Below, one piece after another: positions 46,756-64,000 of a stretch of DNA of 64,000 nucleotides; within the stretch, counting starts at the first letter, position 1; the number at the start of each line of letters is the position of its first letter. Under the pieces are notes generated by a model. It was not told the origin of the DNA. It was given only the letters and a program-made list of their open reading frames with translations, and did not search any database. The position numbers were made by a program, and so were the translations under genes. This stretch comes from Akkermansia sp. GTDB taxonomy: Bacteria; Verrucomicrobiota; Verrucomicrobiia; Verrucomicrobiales; Akkermansiaceae. The stretch lies in contig JAFUQZ010000021.1 of assembly GCA_017472085.1 (NCBI GenBank), positions 52,078-116,077 of the forward strand, written 5' to 3'.

Positions 46756-46820
46756 TGACGATTGACGAATTACGATTGACGAATAAGAATTCGTAAGTCG
46801 TCAATCGTAATTCGTAATTC
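46756..46820. repeat. Heptad element between prfB and trmD, folding as a perfect hairpin
   Basis: ACGA recurs every 7 nt with variable triplets between. The arms ACGAATTACGATTGACGA (46765-46782) and its exact complement (46798-46815) form an 18-bp stem with a 15-nt loop. Only 7 nt follow before the trmD ATG, so the hairpin could gate trmD translation or end prfB transcripts. The same family of repeats fills the prophage 7 kb to the right. Confidence 0.9.
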
Positions 46821-46825
46821 CTTTC

Positions 46826-47623: not shown

Positions 47624-47836
47624 CGGCACGGATGGCTTATTTCTGACATTTTTTCACTTTTTTTCAGAAAAAGTGCTCCTGCGCAAGAGTGTTGAGGAGG
47701 GATGAAAGAGGGGTGAAAAGCCTTGAAACGCAGGGGATACGGGCGCGATTAGCGGTTGAGGAAGTAAGTGCGGAATGCACCCGGTAAAAGCGGCGAGACT
47801 GTCGCATAGGTGAGGAAGAGCATCGGCAGAGGGCGG
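47624..47836. other. Host-prophage junction region without genes
   Basis: About 210 nt between trmD and the first phage gene. It contains a T/A-rich hairpin (CACTTTTT with GAAAAAGTG, 47655-47675) that may terminate trmD. No gene is visible. The left prophage end should lie here, but I cannot identify a Mu-type TG...CA terminus or a 5-bp target duplication without the other end, which lies outside the window. Confidence 0.5.
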
Positions 47837-47866
47837 AAAAAAAACGCCCCGGCATTGAAGCGGGGC
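47837..47866 (-). terminator. Terminator of the leftward phage early operon
   Basis: On the minus strand CGCCCC/GGGGCG stem (47845-47850 with 47861-47866) followed by eight T (47837-47844), 20 nt after the last early gene. Confidence 0.88.
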
Positions 47867-47886
47867 GGATGGAAAAATGGACGGCA

Positions 47887-49031: not shown

Positions 49032-49088
49032 GGTTTGTGTGTGTTGTTAAGGAAAGGTGTGTGAGGGACTGAAGTCCCGCGCTGCGAT

Positions 49089-49427
49089 TTAATCCGGCAT
49101 CATGGCGCGGCGGGCAGCCGGTGCCAATGAGCCCAAGGGAAGCAGCTCTTGCTGCACCGGTGTGCGGCGTTCCTCTTTCTTGTCAAGGATGGCAAGGAAG
49201 CGCACCCAGGCACCTTGCTTGCTGGCATTCTCTTTGAGCCAACGCATGAGGGCGAGAGCGTCACAGACTACCACGCGGCAGCAGCCGTGCTGCTCGCTTT
49301 TGTACTGGATGGCCACCTCTGCGGGCTCACTGCCCGCCGTGACATAGATGCCACGGCGGTGCCATTGCAGGCGGCTGAAGATGTCACCCAGCTGCTGGGC
49401 GGCGGCTACGCTTTTGGCGTTTGTCAC
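49089..49427 (-). CDS. Phage early protein of unknown function, 112 residues
   Basis: GTG start overlapping the stop of the MuB-like gene by 4 nt. Soluble, with a central beta-rich piece (RGIYVTAGSEPAEVAIQYKSEQHGCCRVVVCDALALMRWLKE). No family recognised. Confidence 0.65.
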   Translation of the reverse strand: MTNAKSVAAAQQLGDIFSRLQWHRRGIYVTAGSEPAEVAIQYKSEQHGCCRVVVCDALALMRWLKENASKQGAWVRFLAILDKKEERRTPVQQELLPLGSLAPAARRAMMPD

Positions 49428-50401
49428 GCAAGCCCCCTTCCCATGCGGCTGAGTGCCGCGCTGAAGTGTTGCAAATCCACGGCGGCACCATTGAGGCGAG
49501 CCTCGGCCACGGCCAGGCGCACAATGGCCAGCAGTGTGCCGAAGCAGTTTTTCCGGGCGAGAGCGTGGACGGTGCGCTGAATGTCCTGTGTGGGTGCGGG
49601 CAGCCGGAAGGCTTGCCAGATAGCGGCGATATCTTGCTGCGTAGGGGTACTCGGCAGGATTTCGGGCAGGCCGCGGCGCAGAAGTTGGTCGAGCTGCTCA
49701 GCAAAGGGAGAAGTGCGCACGCGGTCTGTGTTGGAGTGTTTTTCCAGATTGGTGATGATGAATACCACGGCACAGCCGGAGAGGTCCGCAACGCGCCGCA
49801 CCACATCCAGCGCATCTGCCCCCTGTTGGCGGGTAAGGGCGAGGTGCGCTTCGTCCACGATGATGAGGTGGCGGGGCGAGAGCGCAGCACAGAGCAAGCG
49901 CATGAGGGCTGCTACGCTGTGACGCGCCGTTGGGATTTTAAGGGCAGCTGCAAGGTCGCGGACAATGGAGCTGATGGTTACGCCGGGCAGCAGTTCCAGC
50001 AGGATGGTCGTTTCCGGATAGCGGCGCCGGTATTCACGGGCGGCGGTTGTTTTTCCGCTTTGGGACACACCGTAAATGCCGTGGCAGCCGTGGGTGATTT
50101 TTGCCTGGTGGCAGGTGTTGAGCACGCGCTGACCCAGCTCTGTGGGGATGTAGCCGCCGGGGGATGCCGTGACCGGCCGGGCAGAGAGTCTCGCGGCGTG
50201 CAGGCCGCGCTGCTCTTCCAGCTTGGCGAGCTGACGGGCGGCGTTGCCTTCATAATTGCCGCGGATGAGCCCGCGCAGTACTTTTTCTGAGAGGCCGAGG
50301 CGGCGTTCTGCTTCCGTGAGTTTCCCTCCGACGGAGGGGAGGAAGTCATCGACAAGCCAACGGACGGCGGGGTGTTGCAGTTGAGTATCGTTCATGGTCA
50401 T
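49424..50401 (-). CDS. Transposition ATPase, MuB-like
   Basis: AAA+ ATPase of 325 residues that, as in Mu, should coat target DNA and activate the transposase. An N-terminal HTH-like part (about 20-75, RRLGLSEKVLRGLIRGNYEGNAARQLAKLE) precedes Walker A GVSQSGKTT (111-119) and Walker B HLIIVDEAH (178-186), with sensor region FIITNLEKH after. It follows the MuA-like gene by 15 nt. Confidence 0.88.
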   Translation of the reverse strand: MTMNDTQLQHPAVRWLVDDFLPSVGGKLTEAERRLGLSEKVLRGLIRGNYEGNAARQLAKLEEQRGLHAARLSARPVTASPGGYIPTELGQRVLNTCHQAKITHGCHGIYGVSQSGKTTAAREYRRRYPETTILLELLPGVTISSIVRDLAAALKIPTARHSVAALMRLLCAALSPRHLIIVDEAHLALTRQQGADALDVVRRVADLSGCAVVFIITNLEKHSNTDRVRTSPFAEQLDQLLRRGLPEILPSTPTQQDIAAIWQAFRLPAPTQDIQRTVHALARKNCFGTLLAIVRLAVAEARLNGAAVDLQHFSAALSRMGRGLA

Positions 50402-50416
50402 GAGTATGGTTTGGGA

Positions 50417-52498: not shown

Positions 52499-52507
52499 GG
52501 CAAGCGT

Positions 52508-52517
52508 GGGGGGGGGG
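52508..52517. repeat. Homopolymer of ten G next to the transposase start
   Basis: Ten consecutive G on the plus strand (C on the transposase strand), placed between the upstream gene's stop and the transposase ATG. Slippage would change the spacing of the translation start region. Confidence 0.9.
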
Positions 52518-52526
52518 CTTGGTTTA

Positions 52527-53369
52527 TTATGCCGTCGGCGGCAGCATCGGGCGGGTTTTAGCGGCGCGGATTCGGGCGGCCAGCGCCTCCAGCTTTGTGG
52601 CCACCGTTTCCCGCTCCTGCGCCGTCACCCGCCCTGCCATTTCATCCACATAGCCGGAGAACGAATCCAGCCACCCGCCGCTCTTGCTCAGGAAAGCCGC
52701 CCGCAGCGCCTCCAGAGAGACCGGCTCTGCCGCATCTGCTGCCGCATCCAGCTTTTCCCCGGCGGGCAGCTGCGGTTTCTCCGGTGCCAGCTCCAGGTAG
52801 GCCTCGCGCAGGGAGCCGGCGGTGAGCCATCGGCTCCACATCAGCTCCGTGGCCTCCTGCGGGTCATCATAGGCACCGGTCAGCAGGGCGGCCGTGTGGT
52901 CGCTGAGGCTCTGCGCCACCACCGCCGGTGTCAGCCCGCCCGCCTCCTGCATGCGCTGCATCACCGCTTCCAGCACTTTGGTGTAGTTGCGCGCCGTGGC
53001 ATAAGTGAACGGAAAGCCGCCGCTGCCGCTGATTTCCAGCGCGGCCTCGCGGGCTTTCATGTTGCCTTTGTAGCCGGCAAACAGCGCGCCGAAGGCCACC
53101 CGCCCCACCGCGCAGCGCAGTGAGATCTGCTTGAGCACACAGGCCAGATTCAGCGTGGCCAGCAGGTGGGTGCGCGCGGCCTCCCGCGCTGTTTCTGCCG
53201 CGCGGGTCAGCGCCCCGTGCAGCGTGCCGCACAGCAGCACCGCCTCGTGCAGCTCGCGGTCAGCCTCGCGGCTCAGCTCCGCGCGCTCTGTTCTCCCCAC
53301 CACCTGCACGGGGGCAAAGGTGGCGGGCTCAGCATATTCACCGGGCAAGCCGGTCAGTTCAGTATTCAT
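52527..53369 (-). CDS. Phage early protein of unknown function, 280 residues
   Basis: Between the sigma-like gene (4-nt overlap at its start) and the transposase gene. Mostly helical, Ala/Glu-rich: HEAVLLCGTLHGALTRAAETAREAARTHLLATLNLACVLKQISLRCAVGRVAFGALFAGYKGNMKA. It also includes a segment GGFPFTYATARNYTKVLEAVMQRM that could be a helix-turn-helix. It may be a DNA-binding accessory of transposition; no family is recognised. Confidence 0.7.
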   Translation of the reverse strand: MNTELTGLPGEYAEPATFAPVQVVGRTERAELSREADRELHEAVLLCGTLHGALTRAAETAREAARTHLLATLNLACVLKQISLRCAVGRVAFGALFAGYKGNMKAREAALEISGSGGFPFTYATARNYTKVLEAVMQRMQEAGGLTPAVVAQSLSDHTAALLTGAYDDPQEATELMWSRWLTAGSLREAYLELAPEKPQLPAGEKLDAAADAAEPVSLEALRAAFLSKSGGWLDSFSGYVDEMAGRVTAQERETVATKLEALAARIRAAKTRPMLPPTA

Positions 53370-53644
53370 TTGTGTGATGTGTCTTTGGTTGATGGGTTAA
53401 AGTTGACGAAGGGGGCCAGCGCTTGCCGCATTTCGGGGTTATCCAGCACGGCGCGGCGGATTTTATGGAGCGCTTTGGCTTCTATCTGTCGCACGCGCTC
53501 GCGGCTCATGCCCAGCAGCGTGCCGATGGTTTGCAGCGTATCGCCGCAGCCGGGCATGCGCGGGGGCAGCCCCGCTTTTTCCCGGAACTCCGGCACACCC
53601 AGCAGCGCCAGCATGATAAGCTCTTCGGATGGACGATTGACCAT
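53366..53644 (-). CDS. Sigma70 region 4-like phage regulator, 92 residues
   Basis: The core (about residues 36-66) reads TLQTIGTLLGMSRERVRQIEAKALHKIRRAV, which is nearly the wording of RpoD region 4.2, the helix-turn-helix that contacts the -35 box. Regions 1-3 are absent. It could redirect host RNA polymerase or act as a stand-alone -35 binder, like the middle regulator Mor in role but not in fold. The first codons (ATG GTC AAT CGT) lie against a heptad element. Confidence 0.78.
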   Translation of the reverse strand: MVNRPSEELIMLALLGVPEFREKAGLPPRMPGCGDTLQTIGTLLGMSRERVRQIEAKALHKIRRAVLDNPEMRQALAPFVNFNPSTKDTSHK

Positions 53645-53697
53645 TGTCGATTGACGATTTTTGAATTCGTACTTCGTAACTCGTACTTCGTACTTTA
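53629..53697. repeat. Heptad element, spanning the ends of two early genes
   Basis: TCGT/ACGA every 7 nt across about 65 nt, first as ACGA-type and then as TCGT-type (inverted arms). It contains the start region of the sigma-like gene and the stop codon of the 60-residue membrane protein gene. Confidence 0.85.
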
Positions 53698-53877
53698 GTA
53701 GTCGGAGGGCGGGAGGCTGTTTTCGGCGGTCGGGCTGTCCGGGCAGAAGCCGCTGTGCTGCCAGCGGGGCTCTGCGCTGCCCTGTTCCCAGACAAGCGCG
53801 GCTGCCAGAGCCAGCAGCGGCAGCCCGGGTATGGCCAGCACCCCGGTGCAGATGATTTTTTCGCGGAGAGAAAGCAT
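53695..53877 (-). CDS. Small membrane protein, 60 residues
   Basis: One hydrophobic segment (ICTGVLAIPGLPLLALAAALVW) with a basic N terminus and a short polar tail. The stop codon lies in a heptad element. It might be a holin-like or membrane-signalling peptide; it could also be chance. Position and direction match the operon. Confidence 0.5.
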   Translation of the reverse strand: MLSLREKIICTGVLAIPGLPLLALAAALVWEQGSAEPRWQHSGFCPDSPTAENSLPPSDY

Positions 53878-53882
53878 GATGG

Positions 53883-53953
53883 GGAATTGACGATTGACGA
53901 ATTACGATTGACCCGTCTTCGCCTCTCCGTGGCTACGCCGAGGCAGGCGAATG
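53883..53953. repeat. Heptad element fused to a palindrome module
   Basis: Heptads ACGATTG-ACGAATT-ACGATTG are followed by the palindromic module CGCCTC...GGCTACGCCGAGGCAGGCG. An almost identical heptad-plus-palindrome combination occurs at 61923-62012. The copy supplies the last residues and the TAA of the 127-residue gene. Confidence 0.85.
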
Positions 53954-54285
53954 GAAATATCGCTGAGGGTGAGGATGGCTTCTGCGATGGCAGCACCGGC
54001 GGTGGTCAGGTGCTCCGGCAGGTTTTGCTGCTCATGCAGCAGGCATGCCAGCATCAGGTACTGCGCCAGCTCGGCATCGGTTTCGGTATCAACGGCTGCA
54101 TCCACGAGAAAACGCAGCAGCTTCCGCTGTATCTCTCGCCGTCTGCCGGTGCAGTTGATGCGCCGCAGAGAGGCGAAGTAGCCCAGGAAGTGCTGCCGGA
54201 CGTCGGCCAGCTGCTCACTGCTCAGCGCGGCGGCTGCGGCGCGGGCTTGTTCGTCCAAGCCGGGGGTAGTAGGAAATGATTTCAT
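53902..54285 (-). CDS. Phage early protein of unknown function, 127 residues
   Basis: I take the ATG at 54283-54285 (MKSFPTTPGLDEQ...) because upstream codons overlap the neighbouring gene in another frame. Largely helical: DEQARAAAAALSSEQLADVRQHFLGYFASLRR and DAELAQYLMLACLLHEQQNLPEHL. The last residues (RLPRRSHGEAKTGQS) and stop are encoded by the palindrome-heptad element. No family recognised. Confidence 0.65.
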   Translation of the reverse strand: MKSFPTTPGLDEQARAAAAALSSEQLADVRQHFLGYFASLRRINCTGRRREIQRKLLRFLVDAAVDTETDAELAQYLMLACLLHEQQNLPEHLTTAGAAIAEAILTLSDISIRLPRRSHGEAKTGQS

Positions 54286-54305
54286 TGACGATTGACGATT
54301 TTTGA
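54284..54305. repeat. Short heptad element upstream of the 127-residue gene
   Basis: TTGACGATTGACGATTTTTGA: two to three heptads directly against the ATG, between two early genes. Confidence 0.7.
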
Positions 54306-54319
54306 AGTTCGGTGTGAGC

Positions 54320-54742
54320 TCAGCGGGTGACGGTGGCGAGGTAGTAGCCCAGCAACACACCGCACAGGGGCAAAAGCAGCAGCAGAACAACTGCCGACAC
54401 CGTGTTGAAACGGTCTTTCTTTTCGGCGGTTTGGGCGGTTTGGGCGGTTTGGAGTTTTTTGTGCCAGGCCTCAAGGATGGCTTCACAGCGAGGATTACAA
54501 TGTTGATTTTTAATCGTGCGGGTTTGAAGCTTCTTCAGTATGCCTATGCGCTCTACTCTTTCAAAGTCCCATAATTCCAACATAGAATTGCCTATTGTCC
54601 CTTTTGTCACATAAAGCTCGGGCAGACTTTTGCCGCCAAATAGATCTATGAGGTAGGCGTATTCAAAGCCATCAGAACACAAGAAGACGATGTTCGGAGG
54701 GGTGGCTTGAGTGGTCTCGCTTTTTTGGTGTAATCTTATCAT
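54320..54742 (-). CDS. Phage protein with C-terminal membrane anchor, 140 residues
   Basis: Soluble N-terminal part (NIVFLCSDGFEYAYLIDLFGGKSLPELY), a KKLQTAQTAQTAEKK linker with three 9-nt repeats, then a single C-terminal helix (VSAVVLLLLLPLCGVLLGYYLATV). Tail-anchored in the inner membrane, N terminus in the cytosol. Unknown function; a superinfection-exclusion role is only a thought. Confidence 0.65.
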   Translation of the reverse strand: MIRLHQKSETTQATPPNIVFLCSDGFEYAYLIDLFGGKSLPELYVTKGTIGNSMLELWDFERVERIGILKKLQTRTIKNQHCNPRCEAILEAWHKKLQTAQTAQTAEKKDRFNTVSAVVLLLLLPLCGVLLGYYLATVTR

Positions 54743-54754
54743 TGTCGGTGGGAG

Positions 54755-54961
54755 TTAGCGGGTTACTCGCTCGCGGAACTGGAGGTTCGGGTTAAATGGT
54801 AATTGCCGAAGGGCTCGCAAAACTTCACCGCTTTCTCTTTTTCCGCTGAGCACCATATTCACATGCGCAGCACTACGACCTATGCGGCGGGCTGCTCCGG
54901 CGATGGTATAGCCATGGTTATAAAGCCATGTTTTCGTTATCGTATTACCTTGCGTTTTCAT
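54755..54961 (-). CDS. Ner/Cro-like DNA-binding regulator, 68 residues
   Basis: First gene of the leftward early operon, diverging from the repressor. The helix-turn-helix reads LYNHGYTIAGAARRIGRSAAHVNMVLSGKRESGEVLRALRQL. The size and place match Mu Ner, which turns down early and repressor transcription. The likely -10 TATTCT lies about 12 nt before the ATG and close to an operator-like palindrome. Confidence 0.72.
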   Translation of the reverse strand: MKTQGNTITKTWLYNHGYTIAGAARRIGRSAAHVNMVLSGKRESGEVLRALRQLPFNPNLQFRERVTR

Positions 54962-54987
54962 GGTTTTTGTGATAGAATATTCGCGTA

Positions 54988-55002
54988 ACAGATGTTCTGT
55001 AC
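54988..55002. promoter_or_regulatory. Operator-like site in the ner-repressor intergenic region
   Basis: ACAGA-TGT-TCTGT followed by AC. The half site TCTGTAC recurs in the large palindrome after the repressor gene (55398-55454), which suggests one regulator binds both regions. Confidence 0.5.
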
Positions 55003-55032
55003 GAGATAAAAGTTAAACATAATGGAAAGAAA

Positions 55033-55395
55033 ATGGCAAGCGAAAACTTAAAGAAAAAAGAAATTTCTGCACGTATTGCTCTCGCCGTTGAACGGAGCGG
55101 CCGCAAAGCTAAGGATATAGCAGCGGCTCTTGGAGTTTCCGAAGTAACTATGTCTAAGTATGTAAACGGAGTTTCTACTCCAAAAAATGATTACCTTATA
55201 TCCTTGTCTCAAGAATTAAATGTTTCGGTAAGTTGGATATTGAGCGGCAAAGATGAGCCCTTTCCTGCCGACACATCCCCCTCGTACGAAGAATGGAAAA
55301 GGAGAGCTTTAGAAGCCGAAAAGAAGCTGGCTATTTTACGGGGGGTTATTCCCATGTTGAATGAAGTCAATAATGTGCTGTCAAAAAATTTGTAA
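55033..55395 (+). CDS. XRE-family phage repressor (CI-like), 120 residues
   Basis: N-terminal HTH (about residues 10-66): ISARIALAVERSGRKAKDIAAALGVSEVTMSKYVNGVSTPKNDYLISLSQELNVSVSWILSG is a classic Cro/CI domain. The C-terminal half (about 75-120) is a coiled-coil-like helix suited to dimerisation, with no LexA-type peptidase. It diverges from ner. The gene and its surroundings are clearly more AT-rich than the rest of the prophage. Confidence 0.85.
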   Translation: MASENLKKKEISARIALAVERSGRKAKDIAAALGVSEVTMSKYVNGVSTPKNDYLISLSQELNVSVSWILSGKDEPFPADTSPSYEEWKRRALEAEKKLAILRGVIPMLNEVNNVLSKNL

Positions 55396-55397
55396 TT

Positions 55398-55454
55398 ATC
55401 TGTACGCGCACAAAACGGGCGCGTACAGATATTAAACGCGTTTAATATCTGTAC
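55398..55454. promoter_or_regulatory. Overlapping palindromes downstream of the repressor
   Basis: A perfect 32-nt palindrome spans 55423-55454 (half site GTACAGATATTAAACG). Its left part also pairs with ATCTGTACGCGC at 55398-55409 (partner GCGCGTACAGAT, 55419-55430), so two hairpins exclude each other. Three copies of the GTACAGA/TCTGTAC motif lie here. No T run follows, so operators or an RNA switch are likelier than a plain terminator. Confidence 0.75.
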
Positions 55455-55486
55455 ACGTGCATAAAATAGCCTCCAAAAAGGAAATA

Positions 55487-56080
55487 ATGAGCATAGAGGA
55501 ATTACAGAAGTGGCAAGAGGTGATTTATGCGGTTACGAGGGGGAGACTGAGCTCCGTGCAGGCTCGAGAGGAAATGCGGCGGTATCTGGAGAGGACAGGC
55601 TACACGCCCGATCCGGGGTTGGAGGGGACAATAAGAGATCGTAGTTCAGTAGAGGGAATGAAACATATCATTGACACGAATGTGGCGATGGCAAGGGGCT
55701 GGGCGCAACGGCAGGAGATGCTGGGGGATGTGCTGAGTCCCGGGCAGGAGCTGTACCGGCAGCGCAACAGCCGGGTGCCGCGCAACTGGACGCAGCGGTG
55801 GCAGGATGCTGCGGAGGCGGTAGGCTGGGAAGGAGTGGCACGGGGCGGGCAGATGATTGCGCTGGTGACAAGTCCGATATGGGTGGAGCTGTCTGCGTTT
55901 GATAATCCGTACCCGCCGTTTGATTACAACAGCGGGATGCGGGTGCGCCCGGTGGATTTTGAGGTGTGCGAGGAGCTTGGGTTGGTGAGCCTTGATGATA
56001 TCGATGCGCTGGAGGAGGAGATGCAGGCGCAAAAGAGAATCTTATCACCTCCTGTACTTATGTTAGGGGAATACGATTAA
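55487..56080 (+). CDS. Phage protein, possibly head-morphogenesis (Mu F-like) related, 197 residues
   Basis: AAGGAAATA before the ATG gives a fair ribosome site. The sequence IDTNVAMARGWAQRQEMLGD, followed by RVPRNWTQRWQDAAEAVGWEGVARGGQMIALVTSPIWVELS and DNPYPPFDYNSGMRV, resembles C-terminal parts of Mu gpF/SPP1 gp7-type minor head proteins. That assignment is tentative. Its place, just after the repressor and far from terminase and portal, would be odd for a head gene. Confidence 0.5.
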   Translation: MSIEELQKWQEVIYAVTRGRLSSVQAREEMRRYLERTGYTPDPGLEGTIRDRSSVEGMKHIIDTNVAMARGWAQRQEMLGDVLSPGQELYRQRNSRVPRNWTQRWQDAAEAVGWEGVARGGQMIALVTSPIWVELSAFDNPYPPFDYNSGMRVRPVDFEVCEELGLVSLDDIDALEEEMQAQKRILSPPVLMLGEYD

Positions 56081-56104
56081 AGTGCTTTTTACAAATAGAT
56101 AGAC

Positions 56105-57136
56105 ATGGCAAAAAAATCAAAGACAGTCAATTACCGGAAAGCTGAGCTCATCGGCAAAGAGGGTGAAGTAATAGAGGAAACTCTGGAATCACTTATAAGG
56201 CGTGCTTTAAAATCAGAGAACGTACCCAGTCCGGTAAAATACGCATACGGCATTGAGGGACAAAACTCGTATCTCTTACTGCACAGTATGAAAAACAAGC
56301 GGCCATATAGTCAAAAAGGTTGTTTATGTGGATGTATTTCATTGTATGATGATGAAACAAAGGTATCATTGGTAGATTCCGAGTACAACGAGGAAAAGGA
56401 CGAAGTATTCAACGAACAAGTGGCTCCAGTTGATTCTAATAATAAATTGAGAAAATTGGAGCAGCAAGCCCACTATTTCGCCATTAGGGGGAATCATGTT
56501 GCTATCATGGCGGCTTCCAGCAAAGGTATTGACATGCTGAAGGATTTCTTTACATGGCTGATTCAGGATATTTCTTGCATTATGCCAACAGTATCGGTAG
56601 ATTTAGTCAATATTCCAACGCAGAATGCCCTTGCCATGCTTACCGAAAAACCCGTTCGTAGCATCAGCTTTAGCTCGTCTGCATATACCCAGCATATTCA
56701 GCCGATGTCGGAGGATGAAATTAAAGAGATAAAAGGAAAAGAAAAAGGAACAAGGAAAGAATATGTGCGAAAAATTTATGAGGAAAAACCTGTTGTGCGA
56801 GCAATTTTAGATGCGATTGGGTGTCCTCCTGTGCTTAATGCCTATACTTCAGCCGAAGATTTGGATGGTCTAAGCGTGGCTATTGAATTTAAATGCAAGC
56901 AAAGAAAAAACGAATCAGGGCAGAATCTGGTGCGCGACATTGCCCGACACGTTGGTGGAATAGAAGAACTTTCCCCTGTTATTAACCTTTCAGGAAAAAG
57001 TTACATATCAAAAGACATGCTGACGGTTAAAGATACGCTTGTGGTAGAGGGGGATGGAAAGAATCTACATCGAACAGGTGCAATGCGTTCCTTGGCCGAC
57101 TGGCTTGTTGAACAAATAGAGAGCGGCCTTGTTTAA
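56105..57136 (+). CDS. AT-rich cargo gene of unknown function, 343 residues
   Basis: Not recognised. Soluble protein: N-terminal KSKTVNYRKAELIGKEGEVIEETLESLIRRAL; a middle part YFAIRGNHVAIMAASSKGIDMLKDFFTWLIQD; a Lys/Glu-rich linker EIKEIKGKEKGTRKEYVRKIYEEKP; and a C-terminal part ending SLADWLVEQIESGLV. Codon use is far more AT-rich than in the flanking phage genes, a sign of separate acquisition. It is paired with a membrane protein gene 43 nt downstream. A sensor-plus-membrane-effector (defence or exclusion) pair is a guess from layout only. Confidence 0.7.
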   Translation: MAKKSKTVNYRKAELIGKEGEVIEETLESLIRRALKSENVPSPVKYAYGIEGQNSYLLLHSMKNKRPYSQKGCLCGCISLYDDETKVSLVDSEYNEEKDEVFNEQVAPVDSNNKLRKLEQQAHYFAIRGNHVAIMAASSKGIDMLKDFFTWLIQDISCIMPTVSVDLVNIPTQNALAMLTEKPVRSISFSSSAYTQHIQPMSEDEIKEIKGKEKGTRKEYVRKIYEEKPVVRAILDAIGCPPVLNAYTSAEDLDGLSVAIEFKCKQRKNESGQNLVRDIARHVGGIEELSPVINLSGKSYISKDMLTVKDTLVVEGDGKNLHRTGAMRSLADWLVEQIESGLV

Positions 57137-57179
57137 GGGATTGCAATTTATGTTGTTCGTGGTATAATGAGGCGATACA

Positions 57180-57719
57180 ATGAAAGGACTCCACATATAC
57201 ATGAAAGAAGGCAGGTATCGGCATGCTGAGGCCATACTCTTGTCTTTGATTTTCTTGTATGTGTTGTATGATGTACTGGAAGAGTCACATCTGAGGGTGA
57301 TTGGCAATTTTTTCAAGGTGTCGGCTGCGGTAGTTACAGCCTCCGGAGTGGTGGCGTACAACCTGCGCAATAGGGTTGTAGACTTCTCAAAATTTTTGAT
57401 TTCCCAGAGTAAAGATTTCGAGGAGATTTCAAGAAAGACAAAGGAATCTTGCCATCGGTTGACCTTTATTGTGTTCTTTAGCTTTATTTCAGGCGTACTG
57501 TGCATGCTTGCAGGTATACATGAACATGTACATATCATGGCCGTGGCCGGGGTGGGATTCATCTTCAGCACAGTATGGTATGCCCATATCATTTTCGCTT
57601 TTGATGAGTTGGAGGAAAAAATGCTGGATACCGCAATGGAAAATCGACAACAGGAAGAAGCGCAAAAACGCAAGCAATTTCTTGAGGCCGGCAAACAAGA
57701 GCATCCTGACAATTTTTGA
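57180..57719 (+). CDS. AT-rich cargo gene: four-helix membrane protein, 179 residues
   Basis: Four hydrophobic segments (AILLSLIFLYVLYDVL, VIGNFFKVSAAVVTASGVVAY, LTFIVFFSFISGVLCMLAGI, HIMAVAGVGFIFSTVWYAHIIF) grouped in two pairs around a cytosolic loop (VVDFSKFLISQSKDFEEISRKTKES), and a charged C-terminal tail (ENRQQEEAQKRKQF). Unknown family. It shares codon bias and direction with the 343-residue gene and is followed by a strong terminator, so the two form one unit. Confidence 0.72.
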   Translation: MKGLHIYMKEGRYRHAEAILLSLIFLYVLYDVLEESHLRVIGNFFKVSAAVVTASGVVAYNLRNRVVDFSKFLISQSKDFEEISRKTKESCHRLTFIVFFSFISGVLCMLAGIHEHVHIMAVAGVGFIFSTVWYAHIIFAFDELEEKMLDTAMENRQQEEAQKRKQFLEAGKQEHPDNF

Positions 57720-57745
57720 TTTTCCAGACCGTACGCAACATTACG

Positions 57746-57767
57746 CCCCGGTGATTCCGGGGCTTTT
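57746..57767. terminator. Terminator of the cargo pair
   Basis: CCCCGG/CCGGGG stem (57746-57751 with 57757-57762, 5-nt loop) followed by CTTTTT. It may also serve the convergent HTH gene that ends at 57773. Confidence 0.85.
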
Positions 57768-57772
57768 TGGTT

Positions 57773-58105
57773 TTACCACACCAAGGGTAGCTCGCCCTGG
57801 AGGAGGGCGGATTGGATGGGGGCGGCTTTGGTGCGGGCAGATTGCACCATGGCGGCCTGGAGGGCGCCGAGGGAAACTTCATCAATGAGCCATTTGCGGC
57901 CCCGTGGGCCGCGTGGTTTCCAGGCCACGAGGGTGCCGTCTGCTATCATGCGCAGGATGGTCATGCGGCTGTAGCGGAGCATGGCGGCGGCGTGTTCTAC
58001 GGTGACGCCGCGCGGCGCCGGCAATTGTTTGGTTTCCACAGGGGGTATTGTAACATGCTTTTTTGAGTTGGCAAGAGGGCGGCGGCTTTTTTGCACATAA
58101 TGCAC
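57773..58105 (-). CDS. Excisionase/MerR-type helix-turn-helix protein, 110 residues
   Basis: The winged-helix DNA-binding core reads VTVEHAAAMLRYSRMTILRMIADGTLVAWKPRGPRGRKWLIDEVSL, the HTH_17 form used by excisionases and small regulators. GTG start at 58103-58105; no nearby ATG. It faces away from the late module and may control it through the repeats upstream. Confidence 0.75.
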   Translation of the reverse strand: MHYVQKSRRPLANSKKHVTIPPVETKQLPAPRGVTVEHAAAMLRYSRMTILRMIADGTLVAWKPRGPRGRKWLIDEVSLGALQAAMVQSARTKAAPIQSALLQGELPLVW

Positions 58106-58143
58106 TTAGTGCACATAAAGAACATAGTGCACATAAAGAACAC
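58092..58143 (+). repeat. Direct repeats upstream of the HTH gene and late module
   Basis: GTGCACATAAAGAACA occurs at 58109-58124 and 58127-58142 (18-nt spacing), with a partial third GCACATAATGCAC copy before it. One and a half to two helical turns of spacing would suit tandem binding of a regulator such as the adjacent HTH protein. Confidence 0.7.
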
Positions 58144-58264
58144 AGCGGGTGGCGGGGCGGTCGTTGTTGTGGTAGGGTATGGGCGTGCCTGCGGGGCGCG
58201 GGCGGTTCGGCGCGGTTGCCTGTTTCCACCATCTACACCGCCCGCCCCGCAGGGAGTTCAGGAA

Positions 58265-58306
58265 GTACGATTTACGCATTTCAAATAATGCCGCCCTGCG
58301 GGCGGG
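58265..58306. repeat. Heptad element with the GCCGCCC palindrome module
   Basis: Two heptads (GTACGATTTACGCATT) followed by TTCAAATAATGCCGCCC and its inverted GGGCGGG. The same tail, ATTCAAATAATGCCGCCC, follows heptads at 63516-63577 in the portal gene. Confidence 0.8.
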
Positions 58307-58313
58307 GGTAGTT

Positions 58314-58850
58314 ATGAGCACGGATAAGCACATAGTGTTGGATGTAGGGCATGCGAATGGCACGGGGGCTTGTGGCCACGGGCTGGAGGAGCATGAGGTG
58401 TGCGCGGAGCTGGCGGTGCTGCTGAAGCGGCTGCTGGTGCTGCGCGGATTCACGGTTTCTGTGATTGATTATCCGGAGCAATCGAATGCCATGGATTTGA
58501 ACCGGACGGTGGCGGCGTGCAATGCGTTGCAGCCGGATTTTATTGTGAGTCTGCACTGTGACTGCTCTGCGAATGAGGCGGCACAGGGGGCGCATGTGTG
58601 CTATCTGAGCCGGAAGGGGCTGACGATGGCGCGCTGTATTGCGGGGCGGCTGTGTGAGCTGCTGCCGGGGCGCGCGGAGTCGGTGGTGCCGAGGGCGAAT
58701 CTGGCGATTCTGCGGCGGACGCATGCGCCGGCGGTGCTGGTGGAGTGCGGGTTTCTGAGCAATGCGGCGGATGCGGCGATGCTGCGGGATAATCTGCCGG
58801 GTGTTGCGGCGGCGATTTCGCAGGGAATCACGGACTACTTTGAGAATTGA
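58314..58850 (+). CDS. Phage endolysin, N-acetylmuramoyl-L-alanine amidase (Amidase_3)
   Basis: First gene of the rightward late module; digests peptidoglycan at lysis. The 178 residues are a bare catalytic domain: HIVLDVGHANG (zinc His), GLEEHEVCAELAVLL (zinc Glu), VSLHCDCSANE (zinc His) and LVECGFLSNAAD (catalytic Glu). No signal peptide, so release depends on a holin. The ATG at 58314 follows the repeat element; upstream codons lie inside repeats and are not used. Confidence 0.9.
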   Translation: MSTDKHIVLDVGHANGTGACGHGLEEHEVCAELAVLLKRLLVLRGFTVSVIDYPEQSNAMDLNRTVAACNALQPDFIVSLHCDCSANEAAQGAHVCYLSRKGLTMARCIAGRLCELLPGRAESVVPRANLAILRRTHAPAVLVECGFLSNAADAAMLRDNLPGVAAAISQGITDYFEN

Positions 58851-58853
58851 CAA

Positions 58854-59360
58854 ATGAGAAAGGTTTTTACAGGTTTGTTTGTAGTCACGCTGGTGCTGGT
58901 GTTGTGCTGCCCGCTGCTGGGTGGTGAGACGCAGCCCGGCTACGTCGGAACGGAGTCCCGTTCCGTCTACGCCGAGGCTCGCCCCTCCGAAACTCCGGGG
59001 CTCGGGGAAGATAGCGGGCTGACGTGGTATCAGGTGGCGGGTATGCTGGCGGCTATCGGCACGGCAACCACGCTGGGCTGGCAGGGGCATAAGAAGATGA
59101 ATGCCATCCGCATTGAGCCGCAGCCGCTGGAAGTGAAGCTGGGCAAGGAGTATGTGACCCGCAGTGAATTTGAGGATTACCGCAAGCAGGTGAGTGATGA
59201 TATTGCGAGTGTCCACAAGCGGCTGGATACGGTGACTCCGGCTGTGGCGCAGATGCAGGGTAAGCTGGATATGATTGCCGCCAACCAGGACAAGATTCTC
59301 AACCTTTTGATGACCGGCCGCGCCGCAGGCGCGGGGAACTCTGCCAATCGTCAATCGTAA
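58854..59360 (+). CDS. Phage membrane protein of the lysis region, 168 residues
   Basis: An N-terminal hydrophobic segment (VFTGLFVVTLVLVLCCPLLG), a second (WYQVAGMLAAIGTATTLGW) and a coiled-coil tail (EFEDYRKQVSDDIASVHKRLDTVTPAVAQMQGKLDMIAANQDKILNLL). This is the shape of holin or spanin-like accessory proteins, 3 nt after the endolysin gene. Residues about 30-50 (PGYVGTESRSVYAEARPSE) come from a palindromic module (CTACGTCGG...CTACGCCGAGGC) of the repeat family. The stop codon lies in a heptad element (TCG TAA). Confidence 0.72.
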   Translation: MRKVFTGLFVVTLVLVLCCPLLGGETQPGYVGTESRSVYAEARPSETPGLGEDSGLTWYQVAGMLAAIGTATTLGWQGHKKMNAIRIEPQPLEVKLGKEYVTRSEFEDYRKQVSDDIASVHKRLDTVTPAVAQMQGKLDMIAANQDKILNLLMTGRAAGAGNSANRQS

Positions 59361-59379
59361 ATCGTACTTTGTAAATCCT
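59343..59379. repeat. Heptad element between two late genes
   Basis: AATCGTCAATCGTAAATCGTACTTTGTAAATC: TCGT every 7 nt. It supplies the TAA of the upstream gene and ends next to the ATG of the following one. Confidence 0.85.
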
Positions 59380-59380
59380 T

Positions 59381-59647
59381 ATGACTGACCAAAAGAAGAG
59401 AGAGCGCACGATACGGCGCACCTTGCTGGAAGACCTGAGCAACACACCGCGCGGGTATATGCAGCCGCAGGAATCGCTGGAAGGCAGCGCGCGCCTTGCG
59501 GTGTGTCCGCCGCCCACGGCTGGGGAGTTCGAGAGTGCTTTCCGGCGTATGGAAGCAGATGCGCTGATACATTGCGAAGTTGACGCCATGGGGGTGAAGC
59601 GATGGAGCATCACGGCAATCGGGCGCGCTGCGCTGGCAGAGTGCTGA
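59381..59647 (+). CDS. Small phage protein, probably winged-helix, 88 residues
   Basis: MTDQKKRERTIRRTLLEDLS..., then AGEFESAFRRMEADALIHCEVDAMGVKRWSITAIGRAALAE, which reads like a small winged helix (helix, helix, wing). In Mu-like phages a similar small gene often lies just before the terminase genes. Function not known. Confidence 0.65.
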   Translation: MTDQKKRERTIRRTLLEDLSNTPRGYMQPQESLEGSARLAVCPPPTAGEFESAFRRMEADALIHCEVDAMGVKRWSITAIGRAALAEC

Positions 59648-59690
59648 AGTACGAATGACGATTGACGAAGTACGAAGTAAAAGCAAGGCG
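59648..59690. repeat. Heptad element containing the start codon of the small terminase gene
   Basis: Triplets between ACGA cores read ATG, TTG, AGT, AGT. The ATG triplet at 59655 is the start codon, and the first eight codons of the gene (MTIDEVRS) are heptad sequence. Confidence 0.85.
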
Positions 59691-60203
59691 GCTAAAGCCG
59701 CAAGGGTCATGAAGAAGTTACGCAAAGACAGCAAATTTGCCCGCCTGACGGAAGAGCAGCGCGGTGAGCTGGCCATGTATCTGGAATGCAACGGCCTGGA
59801 AGACGCCCAGCAATGGCTTGCCGCGCGTGGTGTGGAAGTGAGTCTGCAGAATATCAGCGAGTATTACCGGCTGCATGTGCTGCCCTACAAGTGGGTACGC
59901 ATGGAAACGGCGGCCGCCGTGCTCAGCAAAGTGGGCGGCGATAAAGTGACCGATGCCGCGCACCGCGCTGTGGCACAGCGCGTGTTTGAGCTGAGCACAG
60001 ACCCGAAGGCAGACCCGGAGCTGCTGGCCAGGTTTTACAAGCTCATGAACGATGGGCAGGCCACGGCGCAGAATGAGCGCAAGCTGGCACTGCTGGAGAA
60101 GAAAGCCGCCGCTGCTGATGCCGCCGCTGAGGCGGTGAAAGACGGGTCGCTGAGTCCGGCGGAGAAGGAGGCGAGAATCAGGGAAATCTTTGGATTGAAT
60201 TGA
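59655..60203 (+). CDS. Terminase small subunit, Mu gp27-like (DUF3486)
   Basis: Recognises phage DNA for packaging. The 182 residues include a helical DNA-binding half (LTEEQRGELAMYLECNGLEDAQQWLAARGVEVSLQNISEYYRLHVLP) and a helical C-terminal half with KADPELLARFYKLMNDGQATAQNERKLALLEKKAAAADAAA. Size, order and place before the large terminase match gp27. The N terminus is encoded by a heptad element, so the ancestral start may have been different. Confidence 0.82.
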   Translation: MTIDEVRSKSKAAKAARVMKKLRKDSKFARLTEEQRGELAMYLECNGLEDAQQWLAARGVEVSLQNISEYYRLHVLPYKWVRMETAAAVLSKVGGDKVTDAAHRAVAQRVFELSTDPKADPELLARFYKLMNDGQATAQNERKLALLEKKAAAADAAAEAVKDGSLSPAEKEARIREIFGLN

Positions 60204-60240
60204 CGATTTTTAATTTCAGGCGGCTACGCCGCAAGCAACG
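60204..60240. repeat. Short repeat between terminase genes
   Basis: One heptad (TTGACGATTTTTAATTTC) and the module GGCGGCTACGCCGC, the same module that closes the copy at 63916-63972. Confidence 0.75.
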
Positions 60241-60257
60241 AGAGAATAGCAAGGGAC

Positions 60258-62045
60258 ATGAGGAAACAGGATACACGCACTGCCGGCAACAAAGCGAAGG
60301 CGAAAGCCCCCGCCATGGCGGTGCGTGTGTCTTCCCCGCAGCCGGAGGCTGCCGAGCCCTCAAATCGTAAATCGTACCTCGTAAATCGTAAATTAGTGAA
60401 TCCTTTGGATTCACTCCTGCCGTATCAGCGTGCCTGGTATGAGGACGGTTCTCGCTTTCTGGCGGGTGTATGGAGTCGCCAGACGGGTAAGAGCTTTGCG
60501 ACGGCGGCGATTGTGGCGGCAAGTATGATTGCCGGGAGCAACACCATGTGGATGATTGCCGCGCCCTCTGAGCGCCAGAGCCACGAGGCGCTGGAGAAAG
60601 TGAAGCAATGGTTGCGAGCTTTTGAGTGCGCCTATGCCGAAGAATTGGAAGCCTTGGAGGGTATGGAGAGCAAGGCCGGGGCGGTGCGGCTGGGCAACGG
60701 GAGCCGCTGCATTGCCGTACCCGGCAAGCCGGACACGGTGCGCGGTATGAGCGCCAACGTGTGGCTGGATGAGTTTGCGTTTTTTGAAGACCCGGATGCC
60801 ACGTGGAAAGCGATTCTGCCCTCTATCACGAACCCGCTGAGGGGCGGTGAGAAGCGGGTGATACTGACCTCCACGCCGAACGGCAAAGCCGGGCGAGGGA
60901 AGCGCTTTTTTGACATTTGCTCCGCAAATGCTGATTTACGAGGTACGATTGACGATTTACGAATTGCAGAAAATGGCTCGCCTGCGCTCGCGGGAGAAAG
61001 CGAAGCTAATGCCACCGCTACCGCCCGCGCTTCAGGCGCGGCCACCCCTGCGAGCGATAGCGAGCCGAACTCTATAAATCGTAAATCGTACCTCGTAAAT
61101 CGTAAATCCGGCATGCGTTGGAGTGTTCACCGCATGCCGCTGAGGGATGCTATTGCGGCGGGGCTTCCTGTGGATTATGAGACGCTGGCGGAGGCTATCG
61201 GCGACCCGCTGGCGGTGCGGCAAGAGCTGGATGCGGAGTTCGTGGACACGCAGAGCCAGCTGCTGCCGACGGAGATTATTCTGCGGGCAGAGAGCCCGGA
61301 TGCTTCTTTGCACCCTGCTGCCGAGGTATTCAGCGGCGGGCGCGACCTGCGCGTGGGTGTGGACGTGGGGCGCGTGAGTGATCCGACGGTTATCTGGACG
61401 GCGGAGCGGATGGGCGATGTGCTCTACACGCGGGAGCTGCTGGTGCTGGCGGGCATGAGCCACGCTGACCAATTATCGATTATACGTGCGCGCGTGGGCG
61501 CGTGCACGCGCTGCTGCATGGACTACACGGGCATGGGCATCGGCATGGGGGACATGCTGGTGCGGGAGTTCGGCGAGTACAAGCCGGAGGCTCACAAGTT
61601 CGGGCGTGTGGAGCTGTGTACCTTTTCTGCGGCGTTGAAGCGGGAGATTTTTCCGAAGTTGCGGGAAGCGATGGAGGGGCTGCGGCTGCGGATACCCGCC
61701 GACCCGGCGCTGCGCACCGACCTCTCAGCCATGCAGCAGGTATGCAGCGGTGGCCAGTTCAGCTACGAAGCCCCGCGCACCAAGGACGGCCACTCTGACC
61801 GCTGTACCGCCGCCGCGCTCTGTGTGCGGGCGGGAGAGGGGGCGGCAGCTTGTCTGCATGTGGGTGTCATTCCCCGCACAGCCCCGCGCACAGGCCATCG
61901 GCATGGGTGGAATCATGCCGAGGATTTACGAGGTACGAATTACCCGTCTTCGCCTCTGCGAGGCTACGCCGAGGCAGGCGATTTACGAATTACCGGCTCG
62001 GCATGCCTGCGCATGCAAGAGAGAAAGAAAGGATTCAGGAAATGA
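60258..62045 (+). CDS. Terminase large subunit, Mu gp28-like, with in-frame repeat insertions
   Basis: Packaging motor ATPase and nuclease. Walker A-like GVWSRQTGKSFAT (about 69-81), Walker B VWLDEFAFFED (about 166-176), the coupling motif ILTSTPNGKAGRGKRFF, and nuclease Asp in RVGVDVGRVSDPTV and RCCMDYTGMGIGMGD. Three heptad elements are read in frame: residues 36-45 (NRKSYLVNRK), 226-284 (complete copy, DLRGTIDDLR...SYLVNRKS) and 556 to the end (DLRGTNY..., with the palindrome module). The 226-284 copy falls between the motor-motif strand and GMRWSVHRMPLRDAI, a loop in relatives. The stop overlaps the portal start (ATGA). Confidence 0.9.
   Translation: MRKQDTRTAGNKAKAKAPAMAVRVSSPQPEAAEPSNRKSYLVNRKLVNPLDSLLPYQRAWYEDGSRFLAGVWSRQTGKSFATAAIVAASMIAGSNTMWMIAAPSERQSHEALEKVKQWLRAFECAYAEELEALEGMESKAGAVRLGNGSRCIAVPGKPDTVRGMSANVWLDEFAFFEDPDATWKAILPSITNPLRGGEKRVILTSTPNGKAGRGKRFFDICSANADLRGTIDDLRIAENGSPALAGESEANATATARASGAATPASDSEPNSINRKSYLVNRKSGMRWSVHRMPLRDAIAAGLPVDYETLAEAIGDPLAVRQELDAEFVDTQSQLLPTEIILRAESPDASLHPAAEVFSGGRDLRVGVDVGRVSDPTVIWTAERMGDVLYTRELLVLAGMSHADQLSIIRARVGACTRCCMDYTGMGIGMGDMLVREFGEYKPEAHKFGRVELCTFSAALKREIFPKLREAMEGLRLRIPADPALRTDLSAMQQVCSGGQFSYEAPRTKDGHSDRCTAAALCVRAGEGAAACLHVGVIPRTAPRTGHRHGWNHAEDLRGTNYPSSPLRGYAEAGDLRITGSACLRMQERKKGFRK
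60361..60398 (+). repeat. Right-arm heptad element inside the large terminase gene
   Basis: AATCGTAAATCGTACCTCGT and the next heptads encode NRKSYLVNRK (residues 36-45). The sequence just before it, PQPEAAEPS, matches the sequence before the right arm in the portal gene (PQPEAAENS), so part of the element core came along. Confidence 0.85.
60933..61109 (+). repeat. Complete compound heptad element, in frame in the large terminase gene
   Basis: 177 bp, a multiple of three. Left arm GATTTACGAGGTACGATTGA and onward (DLRGTIDDLR), a core rich in palindromes (encodes NGSPALAGESEANATATARASGAA), right arm reading AATCGTAAATCGTACCTCGT (NRKSYLVNRKS). The arms are inverted repeats of each other. The portal gene carries a similar copy in the same frame at 62516-62689. 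Confidence 0.92.
61923..62012 (+). repeat. Heptad element at the 3' end of the large terminase gene
   Basis: Heptads GATTTACGAGGTACGAATTA, the CCGTCTTCGCCTC...GGCTACGCCGAGGCAGGCG module (as at 53910-53950), another heptad pair and the CGGCATGCCTGCGCATGC palindrome. Together they encode about the last 35 residues of the terminase. Confidence 0.85.
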
Positions 62046-64000
62046 AAAAGCATCGAAAAAATCACACTGCCCGCATACCTGCCCGCGCGGCGGCAGAGAC
62101 GCGCCACCTGAGTGCCCGCAGCGGGCTGGAGGTGCTGCTCTACCAACTGCTGCAGAGCACGCTGGTGCAGAAGGAGCGGCGCAACGACCTGCCGGAGCTG
62201 ACTCCGCAGCGAGCCCGTGAACTGTATGAAGCCTGGCGCCGGGGAGAGATGGCAGACGTGCAGCTGATGTGGGATCAGCTGGAGGAGCGGGACGAAACGC
62301 TTTTCACCGTGCTGCATGCGCGGCTGGGTGCTCTGGCAGAGATGCCGTGGGCGGTCAATATCGATGCCGATCTGGCGGAGGATATACAGCCGCTGGCCGA
62401 GAGCCAGAAGCGGCTGGCCAATGAGCTGCTGGCGGCGGTGGAGAATCTGCCGGAGGCGCTGGTGCACCTGGGCATGGCCGATTTCCGCGGCGTGGCCGCG
62501 CTGGAAATCGTCGGTGATTTACGAGGTACGATTGACGATTTACGAATGGGAAAGAATGGCGAGCCTGCGCTCGCAAGTGAAAGCGAAGCTGATGCCACCG
62601 CTACCGCCCGCGCTTCAGGCGCGGCCATCCCGCAGCCGGAGGCTGCCGAGAATTCAAATCGTACCTCGTACCTCGTCAATCGAAAATCCCCCTTGCGTTG
62701 GGAGGTGATAGAACCCTGGAACCTGTGCCGCCCGGTGCGGCGTGGACCATGGTACTACAATGCGGAGGCCTCTGCCACGCCCACCCGCCCGGAGGAGCTG
62801 GAGGCAGAGCGCGTGATTCTGCGCGAGGCGCAGCCCATCGACTTGCCGGCCATGTTCCTCATCTGCGCCAAGTATCTTTCCGTGCACGCGTGGGATGCCT
62901 TTCTGGAGGTATTCGGCATACCGAATATCTTCCTGGAGATGCCGCCTGCCACGCCGCAGGACAAGGCCATGGAGTTTGATGCCGTGGTGCAGCGGCTCAT
63001 CGGCGAGGGGCGCGGCACAGTGCCCAACGGCGCGAAGTTTCACACCGTGGAGACCAGCAAGGACAATACGCAGAGCTTTGAGGCACGCGCCAAGTGGTGC
63101 AATGAAGCCATCATCCAGCTGGCCACGGGTGGGCTGCTCACCGTCACCACGCAGAGCGGCAGCGGCACGCTGGCGGGGAATGCCCACAGCGACAGTTTCA
63201 GCCGCCTGTGCGCGGCGAGTGCGCGCAGCATCTCTGCTGCCATCAACCGCCAGTTTTTGCGACCTGCGCTGCAAGCGGCCTTTGCCGGGCAGCCGGTGCT
63301 GGTGAAGTTTGAGCTGGCGCCGGAGCCGGTGGACGACCGCAAGCAGATGGCGGAGCTGCTCGCTGCGCTGAACGCCGCAGGCTGGGCTCCCGCTGCGGAG
63401 ACGGTGAGCGAGATGATGAATTTCGAGGTGCAGCGCATCCAACAGCCGCCAACAGACACCAACACGCAGGCGCCGCCTGTGATGAATCGCAGTGGCGAGC
63501 TTCAGCCCGCCCGGGAAAGTACGATTGACGAATTACGAAGTACGAATTCAAATAATGCCGCCCGGCGGGCGGATGAGGAACGCGAGACGACTACTGTCAA
63601 TGACGCTGATCCGCCGCTGAATGCGGAGGAGCTGGCCACGCTGCGATTCCTGGGTGGTGGGCTGAATCCCGGGCAGGTGGGGGCGGATGCGGAGTACACC
63701 GCCGCCGCCCTGCGCGAGGGGTTGGTGATGAACTCCTGCAATCAGTACGGGCATGATGCAGACTGCGACGGCGCAGATGATGATGCTGCTGCTGAGGAGC
63801 GCGAACGCCGAGAGGCGGAGGAGGCCGAACGCCGCGAGCGGGAGATGGATGCCTCCAGTATGGAGTCCGCAGGCTACACCCCGGAGGAGATTGAGCGTGT
63901 GACGGGAATCAAAGAGGATTTACGATTGACGAATGACGATTTACGATTGGAAAATTCGGCGGCTACGCCGCAGGATGAAGAGGATGTGGTGACGAATGCC
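62042..64000 (+). CDS. Portal protein, DUF935 (Mu gp29-like), partial at window end, with in-frame repeat insertions
   Basis: Open to the last base (653 codons visible). Portal landmarks: LQSTLVQKERRNDLPELTPQRARELYEAWRRGE near the start, DAWDAFLEVFGIPNIF-type region (HAWDAFLEVFGIPNIFLEMPPATPQDKAME), and GTLAGNAHSDSFSRLCAASARSISAAINRQFLRP. DUF935 portals form the dodecamer through which DNA enters the head. Three repeat elements are read in frame: residues 159-216 (complete element), about 492-513 (STIDELRSTNSNNAARRAD) and about 625-645 (DLRLTNDDLRLENSAATP). The first interrupts a loop between ALEIVG and PLRWEVIEPW. The ATG overlaps the terminase stop. Confidence 0.88.
   Translation, partial: MKKHRKNHTARIPARAAAETRHLSARSGLEVLLYQLLQSTLVQKERRNDLPELTPQRARELYEAWRRGEMADVQLMWDQLEERDETLFTVLHARLGALAEMPWAVNIDADLAEDIQPLAESQKRLANELLAAVENLPEALVHLGMADFRGVAALEIVGDLRGTIDDLRMGKNGEPALASESEADATATARASGAAIPQPEAAENSNRTSYLVNRKSPLRWEVIEPWNLCRPVRRGPWYYNAEASATPTRPEELEAERVILREAQPIDLPAMFLICAKYLSVHAWDAFLEVFGIPNIFLEMPPATPQDKAMEFDAVVQRLIGEGRGTVPNGAKFHTVETSKDNTQSFEARAKWCNEAIIQLATGGLLTVTTQSGSGTLAGNAHSDSFSRLCAASARSISAAINRQFLRPALQAAFAGQPVLVKFELAPEPVDDRKQMAELLAALNAAGWAPAAETVSEMMNFEVQRIQQPPTDTNTQAPPVMNRSGELQPARESTIDELRSTNSNNAARRADEERETTTVNDADPPLNAEELATLRFLGGGLNPGQVGADAEYTAAALREGLVMNSCNQYGHDADCDGADDDAAAEERERREAEEAERREREMDASSMESAGYTPEEIERVTGIKEDLRLTNDDLRLENSAATPQDEEDVVTNA
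62516..62689 (+). repeat. Complete compound heptad element, in frame in the portal gene
   Basis: 174 bp, a multiple of three. Left arm encodes DLRGTIDDLR, core encodes NGEPALASESEADATATARASGAA then PQPEAAENSN, right arm encodes RTSYLVNRKS. Most of the core matches the copy in the large terminase gene at the base level, including its palindromes. Confidence 0.92.
63516..63577 (+). repeat. Heptad element with GCCGCCC module, in frame in the portal gene
   Basis: Triplets TTG, ATT, AGT, ATT between ACGA cores, then ATTCAAATAATGCCGCCCGG and GGGCGG. The tail matches the copy at 58265-58306. Encodes STIDELRSTNSNNAARRAD. Confidence 0.88.
63916..63972 (+). repeat. Heptad element with GGCGGCTACGCCGC module, in frame in the portal gene
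   Basis: Triplets TTG, ATG, TTT, TTG between ACGA cores, then GGAAAATTC and GGCGGCTACGCCGC (compare 60220-60235). Encodes DLRLTNDDLRLENSAATP. Confidence 0.85.

Follow-up and report, generated by a model that had tools for sequence, protein, structure and literature searches.

Two compound palindromes of similar build lie in the large terminase and portal genes of a prophage-like gene cluster, and the locus raises the question of whether they are original parts of these genes or sequences inserted into them and, if inserted, how such sequences could come to lie in frame in both. The window (the whole stretch of 64,000 nucleotides analysed, G000:C66:52078-116077) is the end of a contig from a genome of 2.45 Mb in 96 contigs, and a Mu-like late gene cluster occupies its last part, on the plus strand. 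The cluster comprises a gp27-like ORF (59655-60203; Pfam Phage_Mu_Gp27), the large terminase gene (60258..62045; Mu gp28-like, 595 aa; Pfam Terminase_6N and Terminase_6C, PHROG terminase large subunit) and the portal protein gene (62042..64000; Mu gp29-like; Pfam Portal_Mu, 2.1e-35), the last open at its 3' side, where it is truncated by the window and contig end. The few named homologues among those listed are from Akkermansia or Akkermansiaceae, as are three of the four portal loci found in a scan of genome contigs (42–51% identity, with the insert sites outside the alignment), and the carrier is likely to be a Mu-like prophage of a probable Akkermansia genome.

Element 1 (60933..61108, plus strand) accounts for 58 inserted terminase residues (226–283) and was delimited from repeats, same-genus loci, RNA folding, the homologue census, reading frame and AlphaFold; element 2 (62516..62688, plus strand) accounts for about 57 inserted portal residues, on the evidence of repeats, same-genus loci, RNA folding, the homologue census and close portal variants. 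Repeat and frame analysis confirmed the first-pass annotation in placing palindromic elements here, in frame in both genes. The cleanest limits are 60933-61106 (174 bp) and 62516-62686 (171 bp), the lengths of 177 and 174 bp reported earlier being these plus one codon (TCC). Both lengths are divisible by three, and neither element contains a stop in the frame of its gene. It had also been claimed that only one frame is free of stops, which holds for element 1, where both other plus-strand frames contain stops, but not for element 2, where one of the two does and the second is stop-free. One minus-strand frame is also open across 60933-61106 and 62516-62686, so that read-through is possible in either orientation. 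Both elements are mosaics of micro-hairpins and arrays of a 7-bp unit, NNNACGA. A stretch of 117 nt is common to the two at 91% identity. Each has heptad arms in inverted orientation, which provide the terminal inverted repeats looked for in a MITE, and the right halves of the two are different modules. The arms of element 1 (62 nt, 74% complementary) consist of NNNACGA units on the left (60933..60965, plus strand; repeat and heptad-array scans) and of TCGTNNN units on the right (61075..61108, plus strand; repeat, heptad-array and tandem-repeat scans). RNA folding gave z scores of -10.8 for element 1 and -5.8 for element 2, with 0 of 200 shuffles folding as well in each case, and the two folds differ in detail.

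That the elements are insertions is seen in related loci. The terminase site carries a short loop without the insert in 12 of 12 same-genus loci (10 genomes), and the insert is likewise missing from the portal site in 12 of 12; these loci are the closer matches; more distant same-genus terminase matches, with E values from 5e-5 to 4e-23, were left out, as was another contig of G054. In the nearest same-genus terminase (G078), where the flanks are 92.6% and 84.8% identical, the length of the joined flanks is exactly that of the window flanks minus 174 bp. No terminase insert is present in two order-level loci and two viral contigs (L062, L067, L025, L026), and none in seven further portal loci, partly from the same genomes; the viral-contig scan yielded three terminase matches and no portal match. 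Protein searches returned 1116 terminase and 141 portal homologues, from which the best 79 of each were aligned, and because such searches return only intact proteins as candidates, in-frame insertions are favoured in this census. Insert classes were assigned by length and by peptide motifs devised for this analysis. On that basis, 72 of the best 79 of 1116 terminases have no heptad-type insert, three have a similar left-arm insert and four the right-arm peptide only; 71 of the 72 have 25–36 residues in the compared stretch, the other (P0024) having an unlike insert. Heptad-type inserts are present in 12 of the best 79 of 141 portal proteins (stretch of 55–107 residues), 66 are empty at 28 residues, and P0169 has no residues there. 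Empty sites, sought as a mark of insertion, were therefore found for both genes, in same-genus loci and in most of the aligned public homologues, and the earlier proposal that these residues are inserted, rather than a constant part of the fold, stands. Two distant terminase matches (G016:C1:1426186-1426809 and G067:C54:95841-96443) contain two and three in-frame TGA codons, respectively, and are either pseudogenes or genes with another reading of TGA.

The AlphaFold model of the terminase is confident except at residues 1–43, 226–283 and 532–595, and pLDDT is below 50 at residues 226–283, exactly the 58 that are inserted. The insert is accordingly predicted to be a disordered, floppy loop, in keeping with the loop location previously suggested for it in the terminase; the portal model (pLDDT 34.5) was unusable, and a related portal structure, 8rka, was identified by sequence. 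Foldseek with the terminase model ranked T4 gp17 first, with low overall TM-scores. D171/E172, D369, D422 and D514, which we take to be the catalytic motifs, are invariant in an alignment of 35 rows that includes the window protein. Compared with G078, dN is 0.046 and dS 0.87 on one side of the insert, and 0.062 and 0.93 on the other; with dN/dS about 0.05–0.07 on both sides, the terminase gene is constrained, in a pairwise estimate that covers both lineages together. We consider it probable that a modular palindromic repeat has been inserted in frame at both places. Each insertion is likely to be translated, as about 58 extra residues for which disorder is predicted in the terminase, and is probably selfish sequence that is tolerated, not a working part. 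We infer that the insert is translated into the mature protein and is neutral there.

The sharp boundaries and strong hairpin could also be expected of a segment that is removed before the protein is made or mature, as an intron, by translational bypass or by protein splicing. Both elements are nevertheless open and in frame, which would be unneeded if they were removed, insert lengths vary, no matching codon pair was seen at the ends of element 2 on reading the alignment, and positions 46000–64000 gave no Rfam match at the gathering threshold; removal is very improbable. On the same search a known RNA family, whether intron or other, was rejected, in a database that may not hold Rickettsia palindromic elements (RPEs).

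Similar inserts are found at the same sites in proteins of different sequence, namely terminases P0003, P0005 and P0073 and portal proteins P0124, P0127, P0129 and P0157, and the insert peptide of P0005 is 84% identical to that of the window. A search with the insert-region peptide found five proteins: P0005, a terminase; P0124 and P0127, portal proteins; and P0241 and P0242, which belong to Mu-like_Pro, a third phage gene with a similar peptide. Insert-bearing rows are interspersed with empty ones on both gene trees, and inserts have been gained or lost repeatedly: on quick trees built without the insert columns (79 portal rows, without P0169; 80 terminase rows, both insert types counted), at least eight gains or losses were counted for the terminase (mean of 50 shuffles 7.7) and at least nine for the portal (mean 12.3). 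The portal insert is somewhat more clustered than in the shuffles (9 vs 12.3), and part of its spread is therefore due to inheritance; recombination between phages could add to the count. Very close relatives also differ. Of 625 residues aligned between portal protein P0121 and its window counterpart, 622 are identical, yet P0121 is 28 residues shorter at the insert, where the right half is absent, and P0122 (592/624) has the P0121-like short insert together with an additional in-frame stretch, ESTIDELRRTNSNNAALRADGNE, resembling a heptad-hairpin module upstream in the same protein. P0121 and P0123 appear in the search results with no source, as proteins encoded by the window itself do, but neither matches the window portal letter for letter; they may come from a very similar strain or from another assembly of identical DNA.

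These variants bear on two other explanations. Repeats might have been misjoined in metagenome assembly, and the contig does end inside the portal gene, while P0121, whose source is not given, differs at the insert and is near-identical elsewhere. Yet separate database proteins of different sequence have similar inserts at these very sites, which argues against such an artefact; we hold it to be highly implausible. Alternatively, the palindrome may be domesticated, with a function for which selection retains it, such as that of an mRNA hairpin tuning terminase and portal synthesis or of a protein linker. The strong predicted hairpins of the two large elements and the retention of an 84%-identical peptide in P0005 are consistent with such a role, but the insert is missing from most aligned homologues, some of them very close, P0121 is without half of it despite its near-identity, insert lengths differ freely, and the terminase insert is predicted to be disordered. 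Domestication is in our judgement unlikely.

The first-pass annotation described the elements as mobile-looking, and their patchy distribution, the variation between near-identical proteins and the occurrence in a third host gene agree with that description, but a mobilising enzyme, sought as Y1_Tnp, and a target duplication were not found. A MITE-like non-autonomous transposon, the palindromes being moved by a transposase or recombinase encoded elsewhere, would have the same protein outcome. Long inverted arms, sharp empty sites, three host genes and scattered presence favour it, and an unknown transposase would fit the scatter equally; inserts could also travel by recombination between phages. 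On the other hand, no direct target duplication is visible beside either element on reading the alignment, in which the nearest orthologue, G078, differs at the junction, and the stretch at one site ranges from 55 to 107 residues, unlike fixed-length MITEs. Y1_Tnp, the only transposase family searched, was not found in the parent genome or in the seven heptad-richest genomes. A transposon is possible but doubtful. REPs and REPINs are small hairpins, often in inverted pairs and mostly extragenic. The present repeats resemble them in these respects but differ in that no RAYT (Y1_Tnp) accompanies them in their own genome or in the seven richest in heptads. As a mover, RAYT/REPIN was rejected: Y1_Tnp had no match in G000, G024, G081-G085 or G087 (the last seven with over 200 heptad matches each), and is present in 50 of 76 genomes, including heptad-free ones.

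Heptads also occur elsewhere in the window, where arrays of at least two units number 16, compared with a mean of 0.65 (maximum 3) in 20 first-order Markov shuffles, and arrays of at least three units number 13, seven of them inside the terminase or portal gene. Across its own genome the three-unit heptad pattern has 61 matches, compared with three for the reversed control. The terminase N-terminus contains an in-frame half-element (60335..60396; repeat scan, G078 comparison and folding), consisting of the micro-hairpin GCAGCC-GGA-GGCTGC and a right heptad arm; this module recurs as the right half of element 2 (88%) and is missing from G078. Heptads and hairpins lie in frame in the C-terminal tail of the terminase (61920..62004; repeat and heptad scans, folding). 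Two further in-frame modules lie in the C-terminal region of the portal, one with the hairpin CCGCCC-GGC-GGGCGG (63518..63578; heptad scan, portal variants, folding), to which a second stretch further on in P0122 is similar, and one with the hairpin GCGGC-TAC-GCCGC (63914..63974; alignments, folding). All are on the plus strand, and modules have been exchanged or duplicated between copies. G060 has two portal genes with heptads in the C-terminal part. Outside the terminase and portal there is a heptad-only palindrome (46756..46820, plus strand; heptad scan, folding), and the gp27-like ORF is bordered by heptads on the plus strand: an array containing its first ATG at 59655 (59648..59678; ORFs, heptad scan) and a heptad with its TGA stop, followed by the hairpin GCGGC-TAC-GCCGC (60199..60236; ORFs, G002 comparison, folding). 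G002 has the same junction of stop and hairpin with more heptads. A 5–6 bp stem with a 3-nt loop adjoins the heptads in five of six smaller stretches folded, and three of the six smaller modules, folded alone, did no better than shuffles (z -0.7, -1.2 and -1.1). A conserved RNA fold across modules is unsupported, these three being like shuffles and elements 1 and 2 differing from each other.

Heptads contain several gene ends in the window, namely the stop of an ORF ending at 59360 (59346-59372) and the first ATG (59648-59678) and stop (60199-60215) of the gp27-like ORF, and by reading several arrays on other contigs begin immediately at a probable stop. The same genome has another prophage-like contig (L122, G000:C40), which carries in-frame heptads encoding GTNDELRST peptides at 991-1022 and 6450-6474, one set near an ORF end and the other in the interior of a 602-aa ORF. 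Gene calls around arrays were based on ORFs and codon scores only; on codon scores, one of 20 arrays outside the window is clearly interior (L122:6450, contig C40), and several near gene ends are ambiguous.

Our working hypothesis for the tolerated insertions is that DNA synthesis jumps between heptad tracts, by template switching or slippage, and so gives rise to new copies. Such jumping would generate both inverted arms and mosaics, with no dedicated transposase needed. Selection would purge the copies that break genes, and survivors would be those at loop or tail sites, with lengths that are multiples of three and an open frame. The 7-bp arm units may themselves help survival in genes; as 7 and 3 have no common divisor, a regular heptad array is translated into one and the same cyclic peptide whichever frame is read. 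All eight coding arrays tested are stop-free, for which the chance is 0.0013 with units drawn from the mix of 17 out-of-window arrays, the eight not being independent. GGT units, which give no stop on either strand, are present in coding arrays of the phage and in none of the 82 units of the 17 out-of-window arrays (C40 left out), a contrast that we do not count as proof of selection, because the elements share descent. It is more speculative, and rather improbable, that this is a living, frame-indifferent repeat system, in which heptad/micro-hairpin cassettes keep copying into packaging genes. Nature would then be carrying out a linker-insertion experiment, with the loops of terminase, portal and head protease diversified as a result in phages of Akkermansia. 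The flanks of element 1 (60914-60930 and 61110-61138) contain short perfect inverted repeats, CATTTGC/GCAAATG and GGCATGCG/CGCATGCC, which on reading the alignment are incomplete in the G078 orthologue; repeats of this kind are what quasi-palindrome template switching would leave.

Among 76 same-genus genomes, 54 have heptad matches, with 0–677 per genome. G087, examined over 400 kb, has 46 arrays of at least three units, of which 43 are intergenic and three lie inside called genes; the plan of heptad plus hairpin is the same there, with another heptad type and other stems. Across the phylum, a four-unit heptad match was found in 27 of 194 genomes, often of other types, and the reversed control is also strong in a few (such as G031 and G261), so that more than one heptad family is present. 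The full-length element core was not found in the 75 other same-genus genomes, seven of which match pieces of 23–63 bp only. The insert peptide, queried in all 76, gave one weak match beyond its own genome, with a stop inside, and element DNA had no match in a named phage collection.

How the elements relate to known repeats was judged from published descriptions. Heptameric tandem repeats of the STRR type in cyanobacteria and Xanthomonas are characterized as degenerate 7-bp units, mostly intergenic and variable among close relatives, for which polymerase slippage has been proposed (PMC4692102). The present heptads share these features, being degenerate tandem 7-bp units that are over-represented, mostly intergenic and variable between close relatives, but they have other unit sequences, are joined with hairpins into compound palindromes and are open in frame in genes. 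Enterobacterial RU-type sequences are presented as small mobile repeats (units of 103, 127 and 168 bp) in genes whose reading frame is kept (PMC2759123). Small repeats inside genes with the frame preserved are common to both. RU-type sequences are not known to have heptad arrays.

RPEs are palindromic, about 150 bp long and in many cases in frame in genes and translated, according to two reports (PMC10969869, PMC3733652). The parallel with them drawn in the first-pass annotation is apt as a way of working rather than as a sign of membership: a palindrome of similar size (about 100–200 bp) lies in frame in a gene that is intact apart from it and has orthologues with empty sites, and it does so in the same orientation and frame in unrelated genes (terminase, portal and Mu-like_Pro). 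The elements differ in having arms of 7-bp tandem arrays and a core that is a micro-hairpin mosaic, in residing in phage morphogenesis genes, and in the widely variable length at one site. RPE-4 and RPE-6 are classed as CGTC-tagged REPs (PMC3733652); Y1_Tnp was not found in the genome studied here. Our best reading is of modular and probably selfish palindromes that code for protein, with an RPE-like way of working but made with STRR-type heptads and of a different build. For Akkermansia and its phages, none of the literature matches listed concerned inserts of heptad or palindromic type. Rickettsia is an obligate intracellular organism, and relaxed selection can be invoked for its protein-coding palindromes. 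The same type of outcome now appears in genes of a phage packaging machine, and with empty, half and full versions among close relatives, both the way in which palindromic repeats are copied and the reason for their settling in frame become open to testing. A further lesson, by way of warning, is that low-confidence segments encoded by repeats in the proteins of gut phages may be repeats that were inserted rather than domains.

Some minor observations concern tandem repeats. Ten consecutive heptad units stand at the end of a contig in G085 (L154, G085:C135, 1-76), an indication that arrays can grow and cause breaks in assemblies. Within the window, a tandem duplication at 3219-3685 has a 242-bp unit in 1.9 copies that are 97% alike, and a tandem array at 58092-58142 has a period of 9/18 bp (TGCACATAAAGAACATAG).
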